A stretch of DNA of 39,347 bases, taken from assembly GCA_003222155.1 (NCBI GenBank), contig QHUU01000102.1:1-39347 (forward strand), in the 5' to 3' direction. The number at the start of each line of letters is the position of its first letter. The stretch's first letter is position 1. Positions 12,098 to 12,488 of this stretch are shown here, in pieces. Position numbers and translations under genes: made by a program. The stretch comes from Gemmatimonadota bacterium. Its GTDB lineage: Bacteria; Gemmatimonadota; Gemmatimonadetes; Gemmatimonadales; GWC2-71-9. The notes beneath the pieces are model-generated. The model was given only the letters and a program-made list of their open reading frames with translations, did no database searches and was not told the DNA's origin.

Positions 12098-12279
12098 GGC
12101 CGGGAAACGGGAAAGGGGAATGGGGAAAGGTGCGGCACAGCGCGAGAAAATGATGCGGACCGCACAGTTCCGATAGCGCACGGTCCCAGACGACGGTTAC
12201 TGTCGAGTCGCGGCGCGGTAGCGCGCGTCAGATCTCGCGTCCCGGCCTTGTGCTTGCCTCGGTTCGCAACCGGTGTGGT
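12098..12279. other. Intergenic region upstream of the permease and the class II tRNA
   Basis: The part next to the permease (12101-12130) is a purine-rich low-complexity run made of GGGAAA/GGGGAA units. A small hairpin CGGTT-CGC-AACCG lies at about 12260-12272, just before the tRNA. A TTGTGC element at about 12249 could be a -35 box for the tRNA but no good -10 follows. No gene is supported here; the open frame on the minus strand across 12094-12396 runs straight through the tRNA. Confidence 0.5.
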
Positions 12280-12363
12280 GCTGGTGTGGCGAAATTGGCA
12301 AACGCGGTGACCTGTCACGTCACTGGGCGAAAGCCCGTGTGGGTTCGAGTCCCACCACCAGCA
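12280..12363 (+). tRNA. Class II (Leu-like) tRNA with Asp anticodon GUC
   Basis: Every stem pairs perfectly. Acceptor GCTGGTG/CACCAGC (12280-12286/12356-12362), discriminator A at 12363. D-stem GCG/CGC with A14, G18, G19 and A21. Anticodon stem GTGAC/GTCAC (12307-12311/12319-12323). Seven-base loop CTGTCAC (12312-12318) with U33 and anticodon GUC. Long variable arm T-GGGC-GAAA-GCCC-GT. T-arm GTGGG-TTCGAGT-CCCAC. The D-arm (GGCGAAATTGGCAAACGC) and A73 are those of bacterial tRNA-Leu. The loop CTGTCAC is the canonical loop of tRNA-Asp, including C38. Normal tRNA-Asp is class I with G73. CCA is not encoded, as for the tRNA-Thr here. Bacterial LeuRS ignores the anticodon, so charging with Leu and reading of GAC/GAU is the simple prediction. 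Identity in the cell is not known. Confidence 0.85.
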
Positions 12364-12390
12364 CCCGTCGCGTTCCTCTACGCTTGCATC

Positions 12391-12451
12391 GGCCAAGCGC
12401 TTTGGCTATCATGACTCACACGTGACAGGTCCCCGCAGCCAGTTTCGCTGC
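12391..12451 (+). ncRNA. Structured 3' trailer of the tRNA with anti-anticodon segment
   Basis: Downstream of the tRNA are two hairpins: GCCAA-GCGCT-TTGGC (12392-12406) and GCAGC-7 bases-GCTGC (12435-12451). Between them ACGTGACAGGTC (12420-12431) is the exact reverse complement of 12309-12320, which covers the anticodon arm of the tRNA (GACCTGTCACGT). A terminator follows at 12459. No ORF is supported here. It may be a processed trailer that can pair with the anticodon arm in the precursor; this is inference. Confidence 0.4.
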
Positions 12452-12458
12452 GCCGAAG

Positions 12459-12488
12459 GAGCCGGGGGATAAACCCTCCGGCTCTTTC
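12459..12488 (+). terminator. Intrinsic-type terminator after the tRNA
   Basis: GAGCCGGGGG (12459-12468) pairs with CCCTCCGGCTC (12474-12484) around the loop ATAAA, with one bulged T, followed by TTTC. The T-tract is short, so efficiency is uncertain. It would end the tRNA transcript before the molybdoenzyme operon. Confidence 0.6.

Follow-up and report, generated by a model that had tools for sequence, protein, structure and literature searches.

A leucine-bodied tRNA with an aspartate anticodon and its adjacent antisense RNA gene: a candidate two-RNA module in Gemmatimonadota

What use could a bacterium have for a tRNA that joins the body of a leucine tRNA to the anticodon of an aspartate tRNA? 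The question is raised by a class II tRNA gene at positions 12280-12363 (forward strand) of the window, that is, the whole 39,347-nucleotide stretch of Gemmatimonadota DNA analysed here. ARAGORN calls tRNA-Asp(gtc) at 12279-12366, and positions 12280-12363 match RF00005 in Rfam, scoring 59.7 bits where the cut-off is 29. All stems are paired, with 7/7 pairs in the acceptor stem, 3/3 in the D-stem (GCG/CGC), 5/5 in the anticodon stem (GTGAC/GTCAC) and 5/5 in the T-stem, as is the variable arm (12324-12338; GGGC-GAAA-GCCC). The anticodon GTC (12314-12316) is positioned in the loop CTGTCAC (12312-12318), the T-loop spans 12344-12350 and A73 is at 12363; CCA is not encoded.

An earlier note on this DNA had described a leucine body with the anticodon loop of tRNA-Asp, and this is borne out. 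Compared with its anticodon arm masked out, the window tRNA comes closest to tRNA-Leu among normal tRNAs (score 44, 82% identity; Ser 28, Tyr 23.5). The body carries the leucine set A14, A15-U48, G18G19, A20a and A73 together with the class II variable arm, and has GTC where a leucine tRNA would have NAG or NAA. A tRNA-Asp would have a class I body and G73; here the body is class II with A73, and only the loop agrees, being identical to that of the tRNA-Asp of the same genome (L228). As the genome already has that ordinary tRNA-Asp(GTC), for which the note had proposed to look, and five normal tRNA-Leu isoacceptors, the window tRNA is an extra one; ordinary tRNA-Glu (CTC and TTC) is also present. 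The gene lies between an amino-acid permease gene on the minus strand and a 2Fe-2S/molybdopterin oxidoreductase, and a second copy with the anticodon CTC (Glu) is found in the same genome (contig C36:23205-23423).

Upstream of the tRNA is a putative leader (12198-12279, forward strand), outlined by motif counts over the upstream regions of 53 related tRNAs. It begins with a weak -10-like hexamer, TACTGT (12198-12203), and contains CGCGTC at 12236-12241. This motif occurs in 30/53 upstream regions against 4 expected, mostly around 40-46 nt ahead of the tRNA, and might be a promoter element or a processing signal; a -10-like TANNNT is found in 22/53. GGT at 12277-12279 is complementary to ACC at 12363-12365, such that the acceptor helix could be lengthened. 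RNAalifold found no conserved fold in the leader.

The window tRNA belongs to a family. A DNA search of 61 genomes, followed by pattern and model searches, yielded at least 53 distinct intact tRNAs in Gemmatimonadota with a leucine body and a non-leucine anticodon; these members are kin, and counts over the family are not independent. Such intact copies settle the doubt, raised earlier, that the tRNA might be absent or decayed in all relatives. tRNA-Leu is the nearest normal tRNA for 53/53 members. A73 and A20a are kept in 53/53, A14A15 in 52/53 and T48 in 50/53, and 249 of the 265 anticodon-stem positions are paired, with many compensating pair types. That 53 distinct relatives retain the identity bases and paired, compensated anticodon stems indicates that the window tRNA is not a product of chance or decay, in agreement with the view that its fully paired arms are those of no relic. 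The bases kept by the family are the leucine identity elements defined in Escherichia coli, a set that does not include the anticodon (PMC9976931). All of these elements are present in the window tRNA, so that the suggested charging with leucine, followed by mis-decoding, appears likely from the sequence.

It is the anticodon that varies freely between relatives. Twelve non-leucine anticodons are represented: CGC (20 members), CAC (10), GAC (6), GCG (5), GGC (3), GTC and CTC (2 each), and AGC, TTC, GGT, GCC and CGG (one each), with C36 in 46/53. The oddity is therefore not specific to aspartate, as it had first seemed. Charging by AspRS, which the earlier note had considered, cannot be the point when the anticodon is free to vary, and A73 in place of G73 in the window tRNA argues against it. 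With codon ranks computed from six window genes, the codons read by the 53 members have a mean rank of 11.6 of the 55 non-leucine codons against 28 expected (P = 5e-6), and for 51/53 tRNAs the codon falls among the 14 commonest. As the anticodons follow codon abundance, the decoy and non-ribosomal roles that had also been proposed become less likely. Only 1 of the 24 members with alanine anticodons (L004) has G3:U70, indicating that these are not disguised alanine tRNAs. C33 replaces U33 in 9/53 members, which should decode more weakly.

Alignment of the flanking sequences revealed, on the strand of the tRNA, a further gene that encodes a small RNA and starts around 40-60 nt after the tRNA (70 and 94 nt in two cases). 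Both this gene, which runs in the window from a promoter beginning at 12384 to a terminator ending at 12487, and the second copy on contig C36 had escaped the earlier note. A TTGACN-17-TANNNT promoter comes first, then an antisense of the anticodon arm and a hairpin, and a strong intrinsic terminator closes the gene. In the window the predicted promoter consists of TTGCAT (12384-12389) and TATCAT (12407-12412) separated by 17 nt, with a sigma-70-like score of 8. Scores of at least 8 were obtained for 33/53 linkers against 3.7% of shuffled linkers, and the predicted promoters end mostly 5-10 nt upstream of the antisense. The antisense segment at the 5' end of the small RNA (12420-12437, forward strand; -31.6 kcal/mol with the tRNA) includes a perfect 12-bp complement, 12420-12431, of the tRNA anticodon stem and loop (12309-12320), and beyond one mismatch four further pairs reach the junction of the D-stem and anticodon stem. 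It is followed by the hairpin CGCAGC-CAGTTTC-GCTGCG (12434-12452), in the family a hairpin of the type GCGTAGCC-GTTTC-GCTACGC, and by the predicted intrinsic terminator GAGCCGGGGG...CCCTCCGGCTC-TTT (12459-12487), of which a remnant survives in the sister genome G001. A terminator is found downstream in 44/53 members and in none within the linker. The loop side of the hairpin is complementary to the tRNA D-arm in the window and in some other members, as if the small RNA had arisen by inverted duplication of the 5' half of the tRNA. Folding predictions leave only about half of the antisense segment unpaired (0.47). The small RNA has no Rfam match apart from tRNA; a resemblance to the glycine riboswitch was unsupported on checking.

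The complementarity between the two genes is specific to adjacent partners. When each anticodon arm was scored against the 330 nt downstream, the 53 members gave antisense scores of 12-22, compared with 11 or less for 72 ordinary tRNAs from the same loci, 25 of them tRNA-Leu; the upstream flanks of the members scored 11.3 or less, with one exception at 15.6. The sum over true partners was 853, whereas 100,000 shuffles of partners gave a mean of 342 (sd 17) and a maximum of 427, a degree of specificity that RNA-RNA toxin-antitoxin pairs require. For 47/53 tRNAs the small RNA next to it is the best partner. tRNA positions 34-38 are Watson-Crick paired with the adjacent antisense in 51-53 of 53 members, and the departures at positions 28-38, summed from the per-position table, comprise 23 G.U and 3 A.C, a bias that is the signature of RNA-RNA pairing and not of a DNA repeat. 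The small RNA of the C36 copy is predicted to pair about equally with its own tRNA (-22.5) and with the normal tRNA-Glu(CTC) (-22.0). In families f2 and f9 the layout recurs on different small-RNA scaffolds. That the locus comprises two genes, a tRNA and an antisense small RNA, we regard as practically beyond doubt.

Genome searches with a model of the small RNA (R1) gave matches in 35 of the 102 genomes of the window's family, with up to 8 per genome, and in two further families of the order; a tRNA pattern search added more f2 members and one f9 member of the same class. The pairs are patchily distributed, occur in several copies and lack synteny even among members of one genus. The sister genome G001 has neither tRNA nor antisense at the orthologous site, where the terminator remnant is left, the copy in G008, of the same genus, occupies a different site from that of the window, and in G005 the tRNA is truncated and the small RNA intact. 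By two different search methods, an intact tRNA is absent at 21/48 R1 matches of at least 36 bits (two of these at contig ends, and three with a T-loop insert or defect and a perfect target), while 3/31 tRNAs collected irrespective of the small RNA lack the antisense (L203, L243 and L254). Such an asymmetry would be expected of a toxin-antitoxin pair, as far as two unlike methods can be compared. Full matches to the tRNA pattern were found in no viral contig searched, and a plasmid or phage origin was rejected, with only partial matches over the tRNA part. The corrected pattern was found in 0/199 genomes of the phylum of an Acidobacteria MAG and in 1/299 of the phylum of a Gammaproteobacteria MAG, an artefact formed by a broken tRNA-Leu beside repeats. 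A wider contig scan recovered one true member, in a Gemmatimonadetes MAG (L149), with a pattern one N too long that makes the near-empty result little informative; many of its other matches resembled intron-split tRNA-Leu. Clustering of ORFs over 33 loci revealed no protein partner and no recurrent defence gene; Ser/Thr kinase paralogues alone recur, which we judge incidental.

Several variants were seen in the same searches. About a dozen of the 48 R1 matches (for example G035:C14:19713 and G063:C21:181) and L269 (G000:C93:4541-4612) are solitary, with no tRNA within 260 nt, and several of these copies have a promoter. Several odd tRNAs share an insertion point in the T-loop, occupied by inserts of 39-66 bp, and their small RNA is intact (L092; L099, 5399-5445; L123, 409-455; L120, 5208-5262; L125, 580-618; L080, 18894-18949; L210, 1559-1624; L136, 77-122). 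Two inserts within one genome are 89% identical, as are two from different genomes. L243 (1493-1580, G069) has a leucine body and the anticodon TGG (Pro), lacks an antisense downstream of it, and may be an odd tRNA of another kind; a leucine-like tRNA called Pro(tgg) by ARAGORN, again with no antisense, is present in a Chitinispirillaceae MAG (L146, 142-226). A tRNA-Ser(TGA) with an unusual D-arm (GGAGGGCTAGACCTAACTGG) was found at L043 (956-1040), L038 (957-1042) and L268.

We consider it fairly probable that the two genes form a toxin-antitoxin-like module made of RNA only. What the sequences themselves display, namely the two genes, their covarying complementarity, the leucine identity set, the preference for abundant codons and the survival of small RNAs beside broken tRNAs, leads us to infer that both RNAs are expressed and act as follows. 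The first, with full leucine identity and an anticodon for an abundant non-leucine codon (GUC in the window, for the Asp codon GAC), would be charged with leucine by LeuRS, which is blind to the anticodon. Once charged it would insert leucine at abundant Asp, Ala, Val, Glu or Arg codons across the proteome, with toxic effect. The second, a short RNA that ends at a terminator and has a separate promoter close behind the tRNA, would pair through its 5' end with the anticodon arm of its own tRNA, opening the stem, hiding the anticodon and silencing the tRNA. Loss of the presumably short-lived small RNA would then free the tRNA, and the module could serve for addiction or for release under stress or infection. 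Points that count against this reading are C33 in 9/53 members, the partly paired antisense segment of predicted folds and the near-equal pairing of the C36 small RNA with normal tRNA-Glu(CTC).

The same anatomy would suit a regulated form of adaptive mistranslation, possible though unlikely, in which the tRNA is released conditionally to diversify proteins and the antisense is a regulator rather than an antidote. The conserved leader with CGCGTC could be its regulated promoter, and tRNA-ProX shows that bacteria do retain miscoding tRNAs. However, the pairs are patchy and non-syntenic within a genus and lose the tRNA more often than the antisense (as judged by two search methods), a pattern more in keeping with addiction than with an adaptive trait. 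Another alternative makes the tRNA no more than a sponge or decoy target for the small RNA, which would be the effector in a module that regulates another RNA. This would account for the solitary small RNAs, but a sponge would need neither leucine identity elements nor anticodons for abundant codons, and since the antisense changes along with the tRNA copy by copy a fixed third target is unlikely; we find this reading improbable.

The anticodon bases are read by ValRS, AspRS, GluRS and ArgRS. This could allow the tRNAs to be additional isoacceptors, each given the right amino acid by the synthetase for its anticodon, with the antisense RNA tuning expression, and A73 suits Val and Arg as well. 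Members with Val or Arg anticodons might indeed be charged by ValRS or ArgRS, which would count against the toxin-antitoxin reading. For the family as a whole we hold correct charging to be very improbable: G3:U70 is missing from 23 of the Ala-anticodon members, which make up 24 of the 53, the body is leucine-like in 53/53, the window tRNA has A73 and not the G73 of tRNA-Asp, and normal tRNAs are already present. Nor do we expect that the pairs serve phage defence, by luring anticodon nucleases of phage or host or as an alarm freed when infection stops small-RNA synthesis, a reading to which we give little weight. Rapid anticodon change between close relatives resembles an arms race, and such a role would be compatible with toxin-antitoxin action, as its trigger, but no defence gene recurs beside the pairs. 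Absence of any function, with the locus a relic, recombination target or chance inverted repeat, might be suggested by the copies interrupted in the T-loop, a frequent insertion place of elements. It is largely refuted by the compensating changes in tRNA stems, the G.U-biased drift of the antisense, the promoter and terminator in register and the codon-rank bias, and we give it almost no credence.

If the toxin-antitoxin reading is right, bacteria hold loaded, code-corrupting tRNAs in check by matching antisense RNA, and the pairs offer a toxin made of tRNA together with a natural anticodon-specific silencer. The question why cells keep miscoding tRNAs then becomes directly testable. Even without toxicity, the 53 covarying tRNA/antisense pairs represent an RNA regulatory architecture, whose tRNAs annotation pipelines now label as ordinary Asp, Ala, Val, Glu or Arg tRNAs.

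A search of full-text literature, with preprints and most subscription journals outside its scope so that a prior description is possible, returned no miscoding tRNA joined to an antisense RNA. We see an even chance that the pairs represent an RNA-only toxin-antitoxin class not previously described, in which a charged tRNA rewrites an abundant codon to leucine, an antisense RNA masks its anticodon, and matching changes on both sides move the pair to new codons, giving a family that spans many of the abundant ones. In logic the nearest systems are RNA-RNA toxin-antitoxin pairs and CreTA. Antisense antitoxins are known from type I and RNA-RNA (type VIII) toxin-antitoxin systems, the toxins of type I being peptides. 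In the present pairs, too, a small antisense RNA has a promoter and terminator to itself and lies next to its RNA partner; to our knowledge no described member of either type has a tRNA as the toxin. In CreTA, CreT uses a mini-ORF to tie up rare tRNAs, and transcription is repressed by Cascade under the guidance of CreA (PMC8501985). Both systems combine an RNA toxin with an RNA antitoxin and act, here by proposal, on tRNA and decoding. In contrast to CreTA, the proposed toxin here is the tRNA itself and the antitoxin pairs with it. The CreTA antitoxin has flanking degenerate CRISPR repeats and is Cas-dependent. The small RNA here has one hairpin and a terminator. Closest in concept is the tRNA-ProX group of Streptomyces and Kitasatospora (tRNA-ProA, ProN and ProT), which has a proline body with A33 and A34 and a co-encoded ProRSx (PMC11415595, a review). 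Like the present family, it joins the body of one amino acid to the anticodon of another, with several anticodons per family and mistranslation expected. It differs in its proline body, its co-encoded synthetase and the lack of a described antisense RNA, where our family has a leucine body, 12 anticodons and an antisense RNA; no dedicated synthetase was found beside the pairs, either between the permease and oxidoreductase of the window or at other loci, where only the kinase paralogues recur. With ordinary bacterial tRNA-Leu the family shares the class II fold, A73, A15-U48, G18G19 and A20a, and it is set apart from it by the non-leucine anticodon, by C36 in 46/53 members and by the downstream antisense gene, which accompanies 0/25 of the tRNA-Leu tested.
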